Virus record (IMG/VR): IMGVR_UViG_3300021959_004274 | Coordinates: 1 to 64,000 of that record | Reading direction: 5' to 3' (one strand) | Origin: a virus | DNA: 64,000 bases | Shown here: piece after piece, positions 2-53,229 of the stretch | Layout: each line of letters starts with the position of its first letter | Position numbering within the stretch: the first letter of the stretch is position 1 | Made by a program: the position numbers and the translations under genes | Notes under the pieces: generated by a model | What the model was told of the DNA's origin: nothing | The model's input: only the letters and a program-made list of their open reading frames with translations | Databases searched by the model: none

Positions 2-211
2 ATTATTAATCTTATGGGCAATAGCCATTTAATGAAAGCACTGGAAATGGATACAAAAAATAAAGTAACAACTTGGATGTTTGGAACTTATCCGCATCCT
101 ACAGACGAAATTGTTAACGGAGTTAGATTTGTAAGTAATCCTAGAGGACTAGCACACGATTTTACAAGATGGCCTAGTTATCACCCTAAACGGATTCAGG
201 TTCAATTTTAA
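2..211 (+). CDS. Metallophosphoesterase, C-terminal fragment (cut by window edge)
   Basis: Only the last 69 codons are in the window, and the frame is open to the left edge. The fragment ends in a pattern typical of calcineurin-like phosphoesterases: a hydrophobic-Trp strand and a G-x-x-x-H turn (TTWMFGTYPH), then a short strand and a terminal V-x-N-P-R-G (FVSNPRG). In the family this region supplies the last metal-ligand histidines. Phage members act as nucleotide or nucleic-acid phosphoesterases. The gene is convergent with clpS and overlaps its 3' end by 26 bp. The family call is moderate and the substrate is unknown. Confidence 0.6.
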   Translation: MINLMGNSHLMKALEMDTKNKVTTWMFGTYPHPTDEIVNGVRFVSNPRGLAHDFTRWPSYHPKRIQVQF

Positions 212-497
212 CCATTAAAGGATATCCATTTGATCTTGCTGATACAGTAACTTCAACTCCTTTTTGTTCAGCAATTTCGTAAGGTAACACAGCAACAGTA
301 GCACTTCCGTTGTTATGAATATCTAAAGTAATATGTTCGGCACCTTTAGTATCATAATCAAAATGTTCCATTAAAGTTTCAATAACAAATTCCACAGTGG
401 TTTTTTCGTCATTGACATAAATGACTCTATACATAGGTGGTTCAGCTATCTGAAAGTCAGGTTTAATTTTGTCTTTAATTTCTACTTGTGTTCCCAT
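186..497 (-). CDS. clpS: ClpS-like N-degron adaptor
   Basis: 103 residues, the usual ClpS length. ClpS delivers N-end-rule substrates (N-terminal Leu, Phe, Tyr, Trp) to a Clp AAA+ unfoldase, normally ClpA. The fold signature is complete: a Y-R-V-I-Y-V-N-D strand (residues 23-30) holding the N/D pair that binds the substrate alpha-amine, the T-T-V-E-F-V helix start (33-38), and H61 in I-H-N-N-G matching the conserved pocket histidine. The gatekeeper after T-T is V35, where E. coli has Met40, so residue preference may differ. A flexible N-terminal extension precedes the core. A terminator separates it from hsp20, and a phage clpX lies 0.9 kb upstream on the same strand. Confidence 0.88.
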   Translation of the reverse strand: MGTQVEIKDKIKPDFQIAEPPMYRVIYVNDEKTTVEFVIETLMEHFDYDTKGAEHITLDIHNNGSATVAVLPYEIAEQKGVEVTVSARSNGYPLMVKIEPESV

Positions 498-528
498 TAT
501 TATCCTTCTTTGTTATGATTAAAATAGT

Positions 529-552
529 AGGGGACTAAAATACTAGTCCCCT
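529..552 (-). terminator. Rho-independent terminator between hsp20 and clpS
   Basis: Perfect 9-bp stem AGGGGACTA / TAGTCCCCT with a 6-nt loop. The minus-strand continuation is ACTATTTT and the plus-strand continuation is TTTCTATTATTT, so it could act in either direction. Its position after the hsp20 stop favours minus-strand use. Confidence 0.7.
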
Positions 553-587
553 TTCTATTATTTACTACCTAGTATATTATAATTATA

Positions 588-1025
588 TTATGACTTATAG
601 GTAATTGCAATACTCTTTGGCTTCATTTGTTCTGGAACTTCTCGTTCTAAATGAACAGTTAGAATACCATGCTCAACTGTAGCAGATTTAACTTCTACAT
701 ACTCAGCAAGTTGGAATGTACGTACAAACTTACGTGTACCAATGCCTTGATGTAAATAATTAACTTCTGCTTCATTATCAGCTTTTTCGCCTGTGATGAT
801 TAATTGACCGTCATTAACTTGAACGTCAATTTCACCTTCAGCAAAGCCTGCTGTAGCAACTTCAATAATGTAGTTATCGTCATCTTTTTTGATGATGTTG
901 TACGGCGGATAGTTAGTTGAAGTAGTTGCGTCAATTCGTGAAAGCATAGAATCGAATAAACGATCAATACCTACAGAATTGCGATAGAAAGGTGATAAAT
1001 CTAATGATGTTGAAAATTTTGTCAT
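588..1025 (-). CDS. hsp20: Small heat shock protein, Hsp20/IbpA type
   Basis: 145-residue sHSP. It has a short N-terminal arm with a Phe/Leu-rich IDRLFDSML helix, an alpha-crystallin domain of about residues 40-132 beginning YPPYNIIKKDDDNY, the A-G-F loop, the G-x-L-x-I/V strands (GQLIITGEK and GILTVHLER), and a C-terminal extension with the S-I-A-I stretch that docks on neighbouring subunits. sHSPs hold unfolding proteins for refolding, and homologues are common in aquatic T4-like phages. The start has a strong SD (AAGGAGA). The leader is about 80 nt and structured (separate entry). Confidence 0.95.
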   Translation of the reverse strand: MTKFSTSLDLSPFYRNSVGIDRLFDSMLSRIDATTSTNYPPYNIIKKDDDNYIIEVATAGFAEGEIDVQVNDGQLIITGEKADNEAEVNYLHQGIGTRKFVRTFQLAEYVEVKSATVEHGILTVHLEREVPEQMKPKSIAITYKS

Positions 1026-1109
1026 TTTGCTGTCTCCTTATAATAAGCAAGATTTATATTTGGGCACCATGCCCTAAAGTTGTAAGACCCTTATGGCATC
1101 TTACAAATT
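1026..1109 (-). promoter_or_regulatory. Structured hsp20 leader, candidate ROSE-like RNA thermometer
   Basis: Between a late promoter and the hsp20 ATG, the minus-strand RNA can form three elements in order. First is an 8-bp stem TTGTAAGA/TCTTACAA (1080-1087 with 1099-1106). Second is a GGGCA/TGCCC hairpin (1062-1066 with 1070-1074). Third is a TTGCT/AGCAA stem (1046-1050 with 1027-1031) that encloses the SD AAGGAGA (1033-1039). UUGCU upstream of the SD in an sHSP mRNA is the hallmark of ROSE-type thermometers. The structure is seen; the function is inferred. Confidence 0.4.
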
Positions 1110-1117
1110 TATTTATC
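1110..1117 (-). promoter_or_regulatory. T4-like late promoter element (GATAAATA) for hsp20
   Basis: Minus-strand GATAAATA, one base from the T4 late consensus TATAAATA. It lies just after the bS21 stop and about 85 nt before the hsp20 ATG. Confidence 0.5.
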
Positions 1118-1132
1118 ACAGAAGCAAGACTA

Positions 1133-1381
1133 TTAGAAAAGTTTCTTTGGTAGTTGTTGCGACGCGAGTTGTCTCTGCCAACGTTTCTTAGCGGCCGCTT
1201 TTTTGAGCTTACGCTTTTCAGTTGGTTTGATATAATACTCACGGTCACGCAAATCTTGAATCAGACCAGTGTTTGCTATCTTCTTCTTAAACTTACGTAG
1301 AGCTTTTTCAATGTTATCGTGGTCACCCAAAATAACTGTTGAACCGCCGCCACCTTTAAGTAGTGGATTATACTTTGCCAT
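1133..1381 (-). CDS. rpsU: Ribosomal protein bS21 homologue
   Basis: 82 residues, strongly basic. It carries the S21 core: the helix ALRKFKKKI, then NTGLIQDLRDREYYIKP, then a lysine-rich tail (TEKRKLKKAAAKKR). An N-terminal extension of about 20 residues with a GGGG turn precedes the core. bS21 sits near the anti-SD of 16S rRNA on the 30S subunit, and phage copies are thought to replace host bS21 and bias initiation. SD AAGGAGAC precedes the ATG. The 5' end overlaps the clpX stop by 14 bp, suggesting translational coupling. Confidence 0.9.
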   Translation of the reverse strand: MAKYNPLLKGGGGSTVILGDHDNIEKALRKFKKKIANTGLIQDLRDREYYIKPTEKRKLKKAAAKKRWQRQLASQQLPKKLF

Positions 1382-2570
1382 TTGTCTCCTTCGTTAAAAT
1401 AGTCGGTTTATTTACCTGACTACTGTCTATTATAACACTCTTTATACCTTGTTGTCTATAATTTTGGACATTATACATGTGTGGCATTAATGCCTTTTCT
1501 AACTCAGTATGTAGGCCTCTAGCACCTGTTTTAAGCGTCTTTGTGCGTTTTACGATTGCATCTACAGCATCTGATGTTATATCTAACGTTAACTTGTCTA
1601 AACCAAACAAATATTTGTATTGTTCTATTAAATTGTTTTCAACACCGCTTAACACATGTTTTAGATCATCTAATGATAGTTCTTCTAGTGCTACTGTATT
1701 TGTAAAACGTCCAATAAGTTCTGGTATAAGTCCGTATTTGTTTAAATCATCTGGGTTTACTTCTTTAAATGCTTTTGTTGTTAATTCTTTTGATATTTTA
1801 CTACCAAACCCAATTGCATTGTTTGCTGTACGTCTTTGTACAATCTTTTCTAATCCAGTAAATGCACCACCACAGACAAACAGTATGTTTGAAGTATCTA
1901 TTTCAACTACTTCGCCACTAGGATGTTTACGATTACCTGTTAAGTTAACACGACATTTTGTGCCTTCTACTAGTTTTAGTAATGCTTGTTGTACGCCTTC
2001 GCCAGATACGTCTCTAGTAATACTTGTTGATTCACTCTTACGTGCAATTTTATCTATTTCGTCAATAAAAATAATACCACGTTCTGCTTGTCTAACATCA
2101 CCTTTGGCATTGTTAAGTAGTCTTGATATTAGTGTTTCTACATCATCACCTACATATCCTGATTCTGTTAAGCTAGTAGCATCGCCAATAGCAAACGGTA
2201 CATCTAAATATTTGGCTACTGTTTTAGCAATCATTGTTTTACCACAACCAGTAGGTCCAATTAATAGTACATTGGCTTTTGCTAATTCAATTGTAGATTT
2301 ATTACCAATACGTTTATAGTGGTTTGCTACTGCTACTGATATAGCCATCTTAGCGTCAGTCTGACCAATGATATATTTGTCTAAAAATTCTTTAATGGCC
2401 ACAGGATTAAGATCAATCTCTGGACGCTCGTATGTTTCTTGATCTTCAACTAATAATTGCTGACAAAAGTCTACACATTCAGAGCATATAGCACTGGCGT
2501 CACCAACAATTAATTTTTTAACTTGATCTTTCTGTTTGCCACAAAAACTGCATTCCTGTGTGTCTGCCAT
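1368..2570 (-). CDS. clpX: ClpX, AAA+ unfoldase subunit of the Clp protease
   Basis: 400 residues, close to bacterial ClpX. ClpX unfolds tagged proteins and threads them into ClpP. Visible are the zinc-binding dimer domain with C7, C10, C29 and C32; Walker A GPTGCGKT (105-112); pore-1 loop GYVG (138-141); Walker B IIFIDEID (166-173); RKH loop (214-216) for substrate entry; the IGF loop (253-255) that docks on ClpP; and sensor-2 TGARGL (R351). Nothing essential is missing, so it should assemble with host ClpP, since no clpP is in the window. It overlaps the following bS21 start and abuts the upstream gene by one base. Confidence 0.95.
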   Translation of the reverse strand: MADTQECSFCGKQKDQVKKLIVGDASAICSECVDFCQQLLVEDQETYERPEIDLNPVAIKEFLDKYIIGQTDAKMAISVAVANHYKRIGNKSTIELAKANVLLIGPTGCGKTMIAKTVAKYLDVPFAIGDATSLTESGYVGDDVETLISRLLNNAKGDVRQAERGIIFIDEIDKIARKSESTSITRDVSGEGVQQALLKLVEGTKCRVNLTGNRKHPSGEVVEIDTSNILFVCGGAFTGLEKIVQRRTANNAIGFGSKISKELTTKAFKEVNPDDLNKYGLIPELIGRFTNTVALEELSLDDLKHVLSGVENNLIEQYKYLFGLDKLTLDITSDAVDAIVKRTKTLKTGARGLHTELEKALMPHMYNVQNYRQQGIKSVIIDSSQVNKPTILTKETNGKV

Positions 2571-14524: not shown

Positions 14525-15334
14525 ATGAATATATTTCGTGACCTAATAAAAAATTTATCAATCCCTAATTATAACAGAGTACGTATTGCCCAAGCAACGA
14601 TGTATTTACTCGTTATCTTAGTAATGATTACTCAAATTAACCTAGCTCTTATGCTATTAGGCTTTGTGCTAGGCTATATATTGTTCACTGTGGGCGTTAG
14701 TGTAAGCCTACATAAGTACGTTTCACACCGTGCCTTAGAACCACGTAATCGCCTTGTAAAGCACTTTTTATTGTTCATGGGTACTTTGACCACCCTAGGT
14801 ACACCAATAGAATTTGCCGCAGGTCATAGAACGCATCATGTACATTCAGATACAGACAAAGATCCGTTTGTACTTAAACAATCGTTACTTCATAACCTAA
14901 AATTATGGTTTTTATGGATGGAAGTAGATAAAATTAATCCACGTATGGTTGTTGATCTAATGAAGGACAAGGATATGAAGTTGTACCATAATCACTACTG
15001 GAAAATATGGGCTATATATCCTGCAATACTATTTCTAATTAATCCAGTATTAGTTGTCTACTTATTTGCACTGCCTGTGGTATATTGTTTACTAGGTATG
15101 AGTTGGGTAACAGTATTAGCACACAGTCAACTAGCACAACGAGCAACACAAGGTACTAAGCCACATTCAACAGCAGACAAGAGTTGGGACAGTTTGTTAT
15201 TCTCTTTATTGTTTGCTGGTGAAGGATATCATGAAACACATCATGCTTACCCAGGCGAAAGAAACTATAAACGTAAAAACGGTAGGTTTGATCTGTCAGG
15301 CGAAATAGCTGATTTGTTTGCTAGGTCAGAATAA
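14525..15334 (+). CDS. Acyl-CoA/acyl-lipid desaturase
   Basis: 269 residues, one of few plus-strand genes. Four TM-like segments and three histidine boxes: H-K-Y-V-S-H-R, H-R-T-H-H-V-H-S-D-T-D-K-D-P, and H-E-T-H-H-A-Y-P. These are the di-iron ligands of delta-9 type desaturases. The C-terminal G-E-G-Y-H-E-T-H-H is almost canonical. The enzyme would alter membrane fluidity or supply unsaturated lipid. It is followed directly by a methyltransferase gene and transcribed from a late promoter. Confidence 0.9.
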   Translation: MNIFRDLIKNLSIPNYNRVRIAQATMYLLVILVMITQINLALMLLGFVLGYILFTVGVSVSLHKYVSHRALEPRNRLVKHFLLFMGTLTTLGTPIEFAAGHRTHHVHSDTDKDPFVLKQSLLHNLKLWFLWMEVDKINPRMVVDLMKDKDMKLYHNHYWKIWAIYPAILFLINPVLVVYLFALPVVYCLLGMSWVTVLAHSQLAQRATQGTKPHSTADKSWDSLLFSLLFAGEGYHETHHAYPGERNYKRKNGRFDLSGEIADLFARSE

Positions 15335-15898
15335 ATGTCTGATATATGGATTAAGGAATGGGCCACTGATGACTACGTAGAAGTTAAAAAGAAAAATTTT
15401 GAAGTAATAGATAATTTTCTTAACTTTGTTCCTACTAATATTTTAGATATTGGATGCGGTCTAGCATTTGAATCTGAAATGCTACAACAAAAATATAATA
15501 GTAATTTATATCTTTTAGACAGTGACTTTGATAATACCAAGGATCGTAAAAGATCTGTATTGTACGGCGAAGTTGACACTTTTAAATTTTATTCTAAATT
15601 AGACGATCTAAAAGCATCATATGATTCAAGAAATATGAATTATACGTTTATAGATGCCAAAAACATTAATATAGATAGTAATATAAAGTTTGATCTTATA
15701 TATAGTATACTAAGTTGCGGATTTCATTATCCTGCTAGTACATATAAAGATTTAGTAAAAGCACACAGTCATGATAATACTGTGGTTTTATTTGATATTC
15801 GTAAAAAATCTTTTGAAGAACAAGAGTCAGAGTTTAAGTCTATTGAAATAATACACAAAGGTCGTAAACACTATACCTGTCAGGTAGAATTTGTTTAA
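15335..15898 (+). CDS. Class I SAM-dependent methyltransferase
   Basis: 187 residues. SAM motif I is I-L-D-I-G-C-G-L-A (about residue 36), with acidic D-S-D at the end of strand 2 and F-D-L-I-Y-S-I-L-S-C-G as motif II/post II. The ATG directly follows the desaturase stop. The substrate cannot be read from the sequence; the pairing with a desaturase allows a lipid target, but phage small-molecule or glycan methylation is equally possible. Convergent with a second desaturase (4-bp overlap). Confidence 0.8.
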   Translation: MSDIWIKEWATDDYVEVKKKNFEVIDNFLNFVPTNILDIGCGLAFESEMLQQKYNSNLYLLDSDFDNTKDRKRSVLYGEVDTFKFYSKLDDLKASYDSRNMNYTFIDAKNINIDSNIKFDLIYSILSCGFHYPASTYKDLVKAHSHDNTVVLFDIRKKSFEEQESEFKSIEIIHKGRKHYTCQVEFV

Positions 15899-16731
15899 GT
15901 GTGATGAGTCTGCTGAAAGTCACCTTCAGCTTTAATATCTTTTCCTGCTAGTCTAATAAACCACCAAGCAAAGTCCCAATCCTTAGCAGTAAATTTATTA
16001 ATAGCCGCACCTGGTTGTGTGTGATGATTATTATGATTGCCATCACCAGGAACAAACACTGATGCTATCTTACTATTAAAAGTTAAGTCTTTACTAGGAA
16101 AGTTTGTGTAGCCAATCCACTCATACAAATATCTATTGTGTGCTAAGACAGTAATGTAACTAATTGCCTGAAACGCATAGATAATAGGTAAGAAGTAAAA
16201 GTATGTAGCAACCTTAGGTGATATTAAAAATAAGATTAAGAACCAACCTAAGTTTAATTTAAAATAATGATTATGGAACCACTTGTGTTCTGCATCAACA
16301 CTCAAGTCTTTTACTGTTCTTGGATTAATATGATATGTTGGGAAGTAGTAGAACCATAGTCTAATGCTACGCCACCAGCCACCACCATCAATGTTTGGGC
16401 TATGTGGATCGCCCTCATGATCACTAAACTTGTGATGCTTACGATGTGTACATGCCCATGACACATTTGAACCTAAGCTCAATGTCATTGAACAAAACAA
16501 CATTAATATTTTAAAGAACTTGTTTTTAGGCTCAAATGATCTATGACTAGAATATTTGTGTAATCCACAGGCCGCACCTATTAAAAATACAAGCCATGAG
16601 TAAGCAAGACCCATAGCAAGCCAGGCCCAATCAAAGTATGTAATGATGCCTATAATAAAGCCAATGTAAGCAAAGGCCTGAAGCATCTTAACCCTTTTAT
16701 CTAAAGGGAAAGTTCTATAAAACCATTTCAT
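15895..16731 (-). CDS. Fatty acid desaturase (second delta-9-like copy)
   Basis: 278 residues from the ATG at 16731, just after the nrdB stop; the longer frame would only read nrdB's tail out of frame. Boxes: H-K-Y-S-S-H-R, H-R-K-H-H-K-F-S-D-H-E-G-D-P-H, and G-N-H-N-N-H-H. Similar in layout to the plus-strand desaturase but clearly diverged. Two different desaturases flanking one methyltransferase suggest a lipid-modifying cassette. Convergent with the methyltransferase. Confidence 0.88.
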   Translation of the reverse strand: MKWFYRTFPLDKRVKMLQAFAYIGFIIGIITYFDWAWLAMGLAYSWLVFLIGAACGLHKYSSHRSFEPKNKFFKILMLFCSMTLSLGSNVSWACTHRKHHKFSDHEGDPHSPNIDGGGWWRSIRLWFYYFPTYHINPRTVKDLSVDAEHKWFHNHYFKLNLGWFLILFLISPKVATYFYFLPIIYAFQAISYITVLAHNRYLYEWIGYTNFPSKDLTFNSKIASVFVPGDGNHNNHHTQPGAAINKFTAKDWDFAWWFIRLAGKDIKAEGDFQQTHHT

Positions 16732-16732
16732 A

Positions 16733-17857
16733 TTAAAGTGTAAATCCGTTGAACGTGTTTTCGTCAACATCCTGTTTAACAGCACCAATAGTGTAACTAC
16801 TTATCTCTGTTTCCTGTGGTGCTACTTGAACATCGCCACCAGCAATCCATTTCTGTGTCCATGGTAGAGGATTTGATCCACCTTTGTATGGTGACTCTAA
16901 CCCTAGTGTTGACATACGCTTGTTAGCAATCCATTCAATATAATCGCATAACAGTCTTTCATTGAGGCCAATCATAGAACCATCTTTAAACAAATATGTT
17001 GCCCACTGTTCTTCTTGATCAACAGCAGTTTTAAACATTTGAACGACTTCTGATTCACATTCTTTTTTAATTTTAATGTAGTCTTTGTCATCTGTTGGTA
17101 GCATTTTTAGTAAATGCTGACTTGATGCTAGGTGTACGTTTTCATCTCTGGCAATCAGTTTAATAATTTTAGCATTGCCTTCCATTTTCTTAAGTTCAGC
17201 AAATGCCCAACTACAAGCAAATGAAACATAAAAGCGGATGCCTTCTAATACATTTACAGAGTTTAAGCATAACCATAAACGTTTTTTAAGTTCATACTTA
17301 TCAACAACAACTTTCTTACCGTTAACAGTATGCTCACCTTCACCTAAGAATTCATACATTCTTTGATATTCAATTAATCCATCATAGTATTTTGAAATAT
17401 CATCACCGCAGTCTGTAATTTCTTTGATGTCCATTAGTTCATCAAATACTTTAGTTGGATCTGAGTAAACGTTTCTAATAATGTGTGTGTATGAACGTGA
17501 GTGAATAGTTTCGTTAAATGCCCAGGTCTCAATCCATGTTTCAATTTCTGGTATAGTTGCTAAAGGCAATAACGCTAAATTAGGGGAACGTCCTTGCACT
17601 GAATCTAATACAATTTGTCTTTTTAAGTTTGATGTAAAGATATGTTGTTCGTATGGTGTTAGATCTTTAAAGTCTTTTGCATCACGCATAACGTCCACTT
17701 CTTCAGGTCGCCAAAAAAAACCTAACTGACGATCAGTTAACTTTTCAAACTGTCTATACTTAACAACATCATAACGTTGGATGCCGTTTCCGCCATTAGG
17801 ATCTAAAAATGCTAATGCCTTGAGATGACTTTTTTTATTTTTGTTTAATACACTCAT
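16733..17857 (-). CDS. nrdB: Ribonucleotide reductase class Ia, beta subunit
   Basis: 374 residues. Holds the diferric-tyrosyl radical. Visible are the F-W-R-P-E-E stretch with the radical-transfer Trp, L-D-S-V-Q-G-R (first Asp ligand), N-E-T-I-H-S-R-S-Y-T-H-I-I (Glu/His ligands and the radical Tyr), and R-D-E-N-V-H-L (later Glu/His ligands). The C-terminus N-T-F-N-G-F-T-L is the peptide that docks on NrdA. It lies 12 nt after nrdA. Class Ia needs oxygen, so infection is aerobic. Confidence 0.96.
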   Translation of the reverse strand: MSVLNKNKKSHLKALAFLDPNGGNGIQRYDVVKYRQFEKLTDRQLGFFWRPEEVDVMRDAKDFKDLTPYEQHIFTSNLKRQIVLDSVQGRSPNLALLPLATIPEIETWIETWAFNETIHSRSYTHIIRNVYSDPTKVFDELMDIKEITDCGDDISKYYDGLIEYQRMYEFLGEGEHTVNGKKVVVDKYELKKRLWLCLNSVNVLEGIRFYVSFACSWAFAELKKMEGNAKIIKLIARDENVHLASSQHLLKMLPTDDKDYIKIKKECESEVVQMFKTAVDQEEQWATYLFKDGSMIGLNERLLCDYIEWIANKRMSTLGLESPYKGGSNPLPWTQKWIAGGDVQVAPQETEISSYTIGAVKQDVDENTFNGFTL

Positions 17858-51483: not shown

Positions 51484-52096
51484 GATATGCCTTTCCTATC
51501 AGAGTTGAGTATTCTGTTGGACATCTTTCATTAAGATGATTAAACATTTCTTTAACTGTCCAGCTTTGTCCAGTTAATTCATCTAAAATAATCTGATCTA
51601 TAGTAAATGCTGTTGCCAGTCCCGGACTATTAACAACATCTAACAAATCAATGTCTGTGTTTTTATCTTTAACAATATTGATATTTTGACAATACTGATT
51701 CATCATATTAATATTATGAAAATAAATTTTTGCATCTGTATCTAAGTATCTTGCAAGATTAATTATCCATTGATATTGATGTGCAAAATGCCTATCCAAT
51801 ATTATACCTTGCTTAAGATAGTGCTTAACAGTATCCACATTGAGATGGGTATTGTTATACAGATATGTTTGTACTCCACTAATATAGCGTTCTTTTGGAT
51901 TTCTAATAAACACATCTACAACACTAAGTTTCCTAATTTGCTCATTGATTATTTTTTTAAAATTTTTGTCCTGAGCAATAGCATCCATTGATGTGCTACC
52001 ACATTTAAAGATAGGATAAAAAAACTTATTAATTTCATGAAAGTCGTAGACTTCAACTCTATTTGGAAACAGTATGTCATCTAACCGTGTAAGCAT
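51464..52096 (-). CDS. Sulfotransferase-like protein
   Basis: 210 residues. Phosphosulfate-binding signature F-Y-P-I-F-K-C-G-S-T-S-M near the N-terminus and the 3'-phosphate strand V-D-V-F-I-R-N-P-K-E-R-Y-I-S-G follow the PAPS sulfotransferase order. Probably sulfates a carbohydrate or peptide. It sits between two radical SAM genes, suggesting one modification pathway. Confidence 0.75.
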   Translation of the reverse strand: MLTRLDDILFPNRVEVYDFHEINKFFYPIFKCGSTSMDAIAQDKNFKKIINEQIRKLSVVDVFIRNPKERYISGVQTYLYNNTHLNVDTVKHYLKQGIILDRHFAHQYQWIINLARYLDTDAKIYFHNINMMNQYCQNINIVKDKNTDIDLLDVVNSPGLATAFTIDQIILDELTGQSWTVKEMFNHLNERCPTEYSTLIGKAYHVLPKI

Positions 52097-53229
52097 TTAT
52101 ACATTTCCTTAAAGAGTTGTTTGCTGTGTAGTTTTCTAAGTTGATCTAATCTTTTTAAGTATGTTAATAAAATATCTTTTTTCTTTTCAAATGGTCTATC
52201 TAAGAAATTTAACATATTACGATAACTGTCTTCTAATAGGTATCCTGGATTAGCATCAATTTTTTCTTGTAATAAGTCTTTGAGATAGGTCAATGTAGAA
52301 TCGGGTAAATTTCTTATATCAAAAAATACTGGTGATTCAATTGGATTAACAATAAAACTGTTGTTATGAAATCCTAGCTTTTGTAAAAACTTAATACAAT
52401 CAAATATTGAAAGATAGTTTAAAGGAATCCATAACATATTAAAACTTACTTTATGATCTAAGTTTCTTATTATTTCTAAGTTGTCTAAAAAGTCTTGCCA
52501 CTTACCACCATATCTAATATACTCAAACTGATCTTCCATTGATTCTACACTTATTGTCCAATGTACATTTTTAAATTGACATATTAAGTCAAACACAGGT
52601 GTGCCTGTTTTACTTAAATTAGTGTTTATTCTTAAATTAACATCAGGGTTTACTTCTAATAATAATTTAAGTAGTTCTTCATTTTCTTTCATTAATAATG
52701 GTTCACCGCCAGCCATGTATACATGTTTTAGTTGATGTGCATTACTAAAAACAAATTGTTTAAGTTCTTCTACACGTTCAGCTGGAACCTGTGGCTTTTC
52801 AAGTTTTAATTCAGCTACCCATTTACTTGAATATTCTGGACCACAATATACGCAGGAAAAGTTACATGAATTTGACCATCTTATATCAATTTTGTGTAAG
52901 TCAAATTGATCTGTAGTTTTATATGTGTCCAACGATGTGTTACGTAGTTCTTTAAGATAAAATACTCTATCACTAACAATATCAAAACTTTTTTTACCTG
53001 CCTCTAATTGATAACACCCTTGACATCCTTGCCCAGGTTTGTTATCTAACATTGTTTGTTTTATTTCAGTATTCTGATCTAGTATTTCTTTTAATGTATT
53101 ATCTTTTAAATTGCCAATGGGTAAACGATTACGAATACAATTTTGCACTGTTCCGTCCCCATTGTACATAAATCCAGTCCATGGAATAGGACAAAAGTTT
53201 TTATTTGTTAGGTAAGTTTTACTGTCCAT
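52081..53229 (-). CDS. Radical SAM enzyme with auxiliary cluster region
   Basis: 382 residues. Core C-N-F-S-C-V-Y-C (CX3CX2C), G-G-E-P-L-L, and L-R-I-N-T-N-L. The N-terminal part has C-P-I-P-W-T-G-F, C-I-R-N-R-L-P-I-G-N-L and C-Q-G-C-Y, a SPASM/twitch-like set permuted before the core, as in the neighbouring enzyme. Likely peptide-modifying; no precursor peptide seen adjacent. Confidence 0.85.
   Translation of the reverse strand: MDSKTYLTNKNFCPIPWTGFMYNGDGTVQNCIRNRLPIGNLKDNTLKEILDQNTEIKQTMLDNKPGQGCQGCYQLEAGKKSFDIVSDRVFYLKELRNTSLDTYKTTDQFDLHKIDIRWSNSCNFSCVYCGPEYSSKWVAELKLEKPQVPAERVEELKQFVFSNAHQLKHVYMAGGEPLLMKENEELLKLLLEVNPDVNLRINTNLSKTGTPVFDLICQFKNVHWTISVESMEDQFEYIRYGGKWQDFLDNLEIIRNLDHKVSFNMLWIPLNYLSIFDCIKFLQKLGFHNNSFIVNPIESPVFFDIRNLPDSTLTYLKDLLQEKIDANPGYLLEDSYRNMLNFLDRPFEKKKDILLTYLKRLDQLRKLHSKQLFKEMYKCLHG

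Follow-up and report, generated by a model that had tools for sequence, protein, structure and literature searches.

The locus described here raises the question of why a virus should encode both the AAA+ unfoldase ClpX and the N-degron adaptor ClpS, apparently without ClpP and ClpA. The two genes lie at the left end of a 64,000-nucleotide stretch of DNA (the window), which corresponds to positions 1-64000 of the 92,187-bp IMG/VR virus record IMGVR_UViG_3300021959_004274. A preliminary description of the window had noted that ClpP and ClpA are missing and proposed that the phage pairs its ClpS with its ClpX and redirects host ClpP. Our analysis leads to a different answer: the Clp genes of this phage lineage probably constitute a phage-borne ClpAPS plus ClpXP system, made up of the cluster seen here and of the lineage's own ClpP and ClpA encoded elsewhere in the genome.

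The source record is classified as linear in IMG/VR and is therefore probably a fragment. It encodes a T4-type large terminase, a single-strand DNA binding protein, a helicase, and a ribonucleotide reductase, a gene set that supports its assignment to a large T4-like phage, and the window is best explained as the cut-off end of a jumbo myovirus genome. The Clp cluster runs toward the left end of the record: only 2.6 kb separate the start of clpX from the record end, which lies 1.4 kb beyond the end of clpX, and clpS ends at base 186. No ClpP was detected anywhere in the 92-kb record, and the sole match to a ClpA model was weak, sub-threshold, and located within the clpX gene itself. The lack of both proteins, as previously described, thus holds for the record but not for the lineage (see below). 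Because the record stops 1.4 kb past clpX, this absence is uninformative about the phage. The argument that a phage without ClpP and ClpA must hijack those of its host was therefore discarded, since the record is truncated and relatives carry both genes. Caution is warranted here, because the missing partner had been deduced from a fragment; the retargeting hypothesis is unsupported, since its premise arose from the position of a contig end.

Judged by their sequences, clpX and clpS are real, intact genes under purifying selection. The ClpX protein exceeds the cut-offs of two NCBIfam profiles (NF003745, 510 bits against 359, E 4.9e-153; TIGR00382, 476 bits against 371, E 7.8e-143), and solved ClpX structures in the PDB align to it at 1e-115. 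All motifs examined are present, namely the Cys4 zinc site, Walker A and B, the GYVG pore loop, RKH, IGF, the arginine finger, and the sensor-2 Arg, and these motifs are near-invariant across 109 phage ClpX rows, which bears out the earlier statement that the zinc domain, ATPase, pore, RKH, and IGF motifs are intact. Docking to ClpP is predicted from the presence of the IGF loop. Relative to the closest relatives, the ratio of nonsynonymous to synonymous substitution rates (dN/dS) is 0.12-0.13 for clpX and 0.24-0.30 for clpS. The latter gene lies on the same (minus) strand at a distance of 0.87 kb, close to the 0.9 kb given before. Its product matches Pfam PF02617 with 87.4 bits (gathering score 23, E 5.5e-25) and E. 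coli ClpS structures in the PDB at 3.2e-15, but it fails the NCBIfam ClpS equivalog cut-offs (NF000669: 71.6 against 149). By this standard, the phage protein is best described as a divergent ClpS-family member and not as an equivalog. An AlphaFold model of ClpS, built from a shallow alignment, reached a mean pLDDT (predicted local distance difference test) of only 64 and gave no fold match; the AlphaFold/Foldseek results were set aside because of this low confidence and of Foldseek matches without meaning.

Residue conservation was assessed in 102 distinct ClpS sequences, using E. coli numbering. The residues binding the alpha-amine group, N34, D35, and H66, are present in the window ClpS, in agreement with the amine pocket reported for it, and are invariant in all 102 sequences, as are T38 and V43. 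This invariant pocket fits a role of the phage ClpS in N-degron recognition.

Two scans of viral contigs yielded about 158 related loci, some of which overlap on one contig. In all 71 ClpX-anchored loci that are long enough, clpS is located downstream on the same strand, while the other nine end before the position of clpS. Hsp20 is nearly always, and ribosomal protein S21 usually, encoded between the two genes. The order clpX-S21-Hsp20-clpS is conserved, and clpX and clpS indeed belong together, as had been proposed. Within the lineage, no sufficiently long locus with clpX but lacking clpS was encountered. Some unrelated jumbo phages, such as Bacillus phage G and the Prevotella Lak phages, carry ClpX without a detectable ClpS; therefore, the clpX-clpS pair is a lineage trait and not universal. 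A search for a bacterial source of clpS matched only two short metagenome-bin contigs (L213 and L214, filed as Bacteroidetes and actinobacterial), which are probably misbinned phage, since L214 also holds the end of an Hsp20 gene. A contig assigned to Acinetobacter phage MD-2021a (L164), in which the clpS region has argC, rpiA, and aroF as neighbours, resembles a bacterial chromosome and was not counted as phage.

We then searched 22 records of relatives for ClpP, for the Clp_N domain, and for Aat. ClpP is encoded in 21 of them; the only negative record (G015) breaks off 3 kb past clpX, similarly to the window. Clp_N proteins about as large as ClpA were detected in 17 of the 22 relatives; the five without one are four IMG/VR records of 127-175 kb and Salicola phage SCTP-2, in which ClpA was found by tblastn. 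In most relatives, the distance from clpX downstream to ClpP is 5-28 kb, compared to about 104 kb in one subgroup (circular permutation being allowed for in two of its three records). ClpA is mostly found 58-119 kb downstream of clpX, but only 24 kb downstream in Pseudomonas phage vB_PaeM_PA5oct (PA5oct), and one linear record has it upstream. On the tree of ClpX sequences, the window falls together with four short contigs within the same clade, and carriers of ClpP and ClpA are spread around it. By kinship, we infer that this particular phage also possesses clpP and clpA.

The ClpP and ClpA proteins of the relatives look functional from their residues. The Ser-His-Asp triad is intact in 20/20 canonical ClpPs, which are 47-65% identical to E. 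coli ClpP. The two freshwater-type ClpPs that were scored exceed the NF001368 cut-off, and ClpP of PA5oct falls just below it. The phage ClpAs, for which TIGR02639 is the best model (about 790 bits), retain both Walker sites, the KYR and GYVG pore loops, and the IGF docking loop. Most relatives encode a second, divergent ClpP, usually close to the canonical one. These second proteins share 23-27% identity with E. coli ClpP and remain under every ClpP cut-off, but their triad is likewise intact (14/14; L191-L202, L204, L206); they could form mixed rings or represent a head-maturation protease. Two further candidates for the proteolytic kit were rejected: Aat, as a phage-borne producer of N-degrons, is missing from all 22 records, and FtsH is present only in PA5oct and absent from the IMG/VR relatives.

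Is the phage ClpS equipped to interact with such a ClpA? In E. coli, salt bridges link E82 and K84 of ClpS to R86 and E23 of ClpA, and ClpS E79 bonds with ClpA E28 and T81 (PMC12493166). All three ClpS residues are present in the window protein; E79 and E82 are each found in 100 and K84 in 99 of the 102 sequences. On the other side of the interface, the phage ClpAs, at about 40% identity overall, carry the equivalents of E23, E28, and T81 in 15/16 cases each and that of R86 in 16/16. Since the residues on both sides are conserved in a matched fashion, the phage ClpS most likely serves a ClpA and not ClpX. We propose that ClpS would bind proteins exposing a bulky hydrophobic N-terminal residue and attach to a ClpA N-domain, most likely that of the phage-encoded ClpA. 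Its N-terminal extension would thread into the ClpA pore, and the substrate would be passed on to ClpAP. ClpX would act as a separate unfoldase that docks to ClpP via its IGF loop. The infected cell would thereby gain phage ClpAPS and ClpXP, alongside Hsp20 as a phage-encoded holdase and S21 as a phage-encoded ribosomal protein. These contacts, as well as the substrates and the timing, are predictions.

The region upstream of clpS contains a sigma70-type promoter and a stem-loop in the 5' leader (Table 1). The promoter, TTGC(A/T)A-N17-TATAAT, is kept in 72 distinct aligned sites of relatives, and where it overlaps hsp20 the wobble base of an Ile codon is fixed. A perfectly paired hairpin with 7 bp or more occurs in 72 of 86 distinct hsp20-clpS gaps, compared to 0/86 after shuffling; among 74 distinct stem-loops, the pairing is maintained by compensatory change. 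In the S21-Hsp20 gap, a hairpin was found in only 1/31 cases. No Rfam match was obtained for the hsp20-clpS region, and the T4-like late promoter TATAAATA is not enriched in the window. The promoter and covarying leader together span window positions 498-610 on the minus strand, with homologous gaps in L003, L020, L097, L125, and others. Promoter and leader may stabilise the mRNA or have a regulatory function. With a conserved promoter and a stem-loop leader of its own, ClpS can probably be expressed independently of ClpX.

Several points weigh against a self-contained ClpAPS plus ClpXP system. The 92-kb record itself lacks ClpP and ClpA, and no longer record of the exact sub-clade of the window was found. 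The phage ClpA remains under the ClpA equivalog cut-off (795 against 993). ClpS, with its own promoter and leader hairpin, need not be co-expressed with ClpX. Moreover, the true partners may be Clp proteins of the host. The latter idea is the strongest alternative: host ClpA-ClpP would be the main partner of the phage ClpS, and host ClpP that of the phage ClpX, so that host proteolysis would be turned on host targets. A delivery of targets to host ClpAP by phage ClpS was suggested by Iyer et al. 2021 (PMC7824862), and docking to host ClpA is equally possible, since the phage ClpS shares its ClpA-docking residues with E. coli ClpS; the conserved interface does not distinguish phage ClpA from host ClpA. 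But a ClpA and a ClpP of the lineage's own, with matching interfaces, would then be superfluous, even if host ClpA could still bind too. Overall, we regard an adaptor directed primarily at the host machinery as unlikely.

According to a second alternative, ClpX aids virion assembly without ClpP, while ClpS protects phage proteins by drawing ClpAP away from SsrA-type substrates. ClpS is known to inhibit the degradation of ssrA-tagged substrates by ClpAP (PMC9663308), a possible role of phage ClpA and ClpX in assembly has been suggested (Iyer et al. 2021, PMC7824862), and a possible structural gene lies directly upstream of clpX. Proteolysis is nevertheless favoured, because the phage ClpX keeps its ClpP-docking IGF loop and the ClpPs of these phages are catalytically intact, which makes this combination of assembly chaperone and proteolysis blocker improbable. 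Finally, that ClpS and ClpX form a pair retargeting host ClpXP to N-degrons, as first proposed, is very unlikely, despite the strict synteny of the two genes (only one gene apart in SCTP-2), because ClpS retains its ClpA contacts, the ClpX N-domain is of the zinc-binding and not of the Clp_N type, relatives carry ClpA and ClpP, and clpS has its own promoter and leader.

The gate residue (M40 in E. coli) is Val in the window ClpS, as noted before. Among the distinct ClpS sequences, it is Met in 71, Tyr in 17, Val in 5, and Leu in 4, others being rare. With the exception of the site beside the amine-binding Asp, no other pocket position listed for E. coli and Caulobacter ClpS varies as much. On the tree, Val requires no fewer than four independent changes. 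A Val gate as signature of the lineage was ruled out, since Met dominates and Val is a recurrent minority state of about four origins. Residue 62 is Thr in the window ClpS and in 99/102 sequences, instead of Met as in E. coli, and is a more uniform difference than the gate. Leptospira ClpS1 has Tyr and Arabidopsis ClpS1 Arg at the gate, and Synechococcus ClpS2 binds Val and Ile as well. Because non-Met gates and altered specificity are found in these bacterial and plastid proteins, the Val gate may, by analogy, broaden recognition. A bolder and less likely reading is that a widespread jumbo-phage lineage carries a self-sufficient N-degron protease (its own ClpS, ClpA, and ClpP), in which the ClpS gate has been repeatedly retuned from Met to Tyr, Val, or Leu on a nearly fixed pocket, so that the N-end rule imposed on an infected cell would differ from phage to phage. 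If the lineage does supply such a ClpS-ClpA-ClpP route, it would represent a natural, portable N-degron system with a repeatedly changing specificity gate, which could be tested in PA5oct on P. aeruginosa PAO1. Its interest derives mainly from the full set, the matched interfaces, and the changing gate.

PA5oct, a cultivated member of the Arenbergviridae infecting P. aeruginosa, and near-identical phages share the gene order of the window, with two small genes between S21 and Hsp20, and have their own ClpP and ClpA downstream. Its ClpX and ClpS are 41% and 33-35% identical to those of the window, respectively. PA5oct differs from the IMG/VR relatives in that one ClpP was found instead of two and in the presence of FtsH. 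Positions 174000-198000 of its genome (L173) also encode an FtsH-interacting membrane protein, a chaperonin, DnaJ beside ClpA, and a product annotated as polyubiquitin-like; for FtsH and ClpP, the depositors note electrospray ionization tandem mass spectrometry (ESI-MS/MS). In SCTP-2, a single gene separates clpX from clpS, and ClpP and ClpA are encoded elsewhere, but S21 and Hsp20 are not annotated between the two genes and identity is only 30-36%. Agrobacterium phage Atu_ph07, whose seven listed Clp proteins comprise these four (PMC6102473), and Sinorhizobium phage Phosso also encode ClpX, ClpA, ClpP, and ClpS, but their Clp genes are scattered, with clpS of Phosso about 16 kb from clpX. In our own analysis, full X/A/P/S sets were found in PA5oct-type phages, Phosso, and SCTP-2. 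Compared to ClpAPS and ClpXP of E. coli, all functional residues checked are shared by the phage ClpX and ClpS and by the relatives' ClpA and ClpP; differences are Thr62, the variable gate, and a shorter N-terminal extension in ClpS, while ClpP of the relatives mostly begins near the mature N-terminus. Hsp20 and two Clp genes near S21 are already on record in published phages (Chen et al. 2022, PMC9723584), but the main text of that survey contains neither the names ClpX and ClpS nor an analysis of the cluster, and S21 of its focal phages adjoins structural genes. Within the open-licence literature, we found no paper on phage ClpX or ClpS as such. Both the components and their S21/Hsp20/Clp setting are known from earlier work, but no analysis of the whole set was found in that literature.

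The S21 and Hsp20 genes between clpX and clpS, which the preliminary description did not mention, and the flanking genes are listed in Table 1.

Table 1. Coordinates of the clpX-clpS cluster and adjoining features in the window
Feature	Position	Strand	Evidence
3' end of convergent gene bounding the cluster, cut by record end	2-211	+	phrog_1649 E 0.024
clpS, N-degron adaptor, 103 aa	186-497	-	PF02617, PDB alignment, residue table
Stem-loop in clpS 5' leader, AGGGGACTAG-TATT-TTAGTCCCCT	529-552	-	Hairpin counts in relatives
sigma70-type promoter for clpS, TTGCAA-N17-TATAAT	582-610	-	10/12 consensus match; at hsp20 3' end
Small heat-shock protein, IbpA/Hsp20 type, 145 aa	588-1025	-	PF00011 1.2e-19; phrog_432 1.2e-39
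Ribosomal protein S21 (bS21), 82 aa	1133-1381	-	PF01165 3.1e-19; TIGR00030 69 bits vs cut-off 29
clpX, AAA+ unfoldase, 400 aa	1368-2570	-	NCBIfam profiles, PDB alignment, motifs
Conserved gene upstream of clpX, 217 aa	2570-3223	-	phrog_11591 6.6e-7, residues 131-187

The S21 gene overlaps the end of clpX by 14 nucleotides. The closest model for the Hsp20 protein is IbpA (NF008013, 6e-39), under its equivalog cut-off, and dN/dS of hsp20 relative to the closest relatives is 0.09-0.11. The conserved gene preceding clpX shares one nucleotide of its stop codon with the clpX start and is syntenic in almost all relatives; a weak match to a virion structural protein marks it as a possible structural gene. 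The gene at the record end is convergent and syntenic in relatives as well and possibly encodes a metallophosphoesterase, although this identification is weak.

Outside the cluster, the window contains three fatty-acid desaturase genes (10876-11622, minus strand; 14525-15334, plus strand; 15895-16788, minus strand), all above the PF00487 cut-off, which is an unusual number for a phage. In addition, a radical SAM protein with a SPASM domain is encoded at 52081-53229 on the minus strand.

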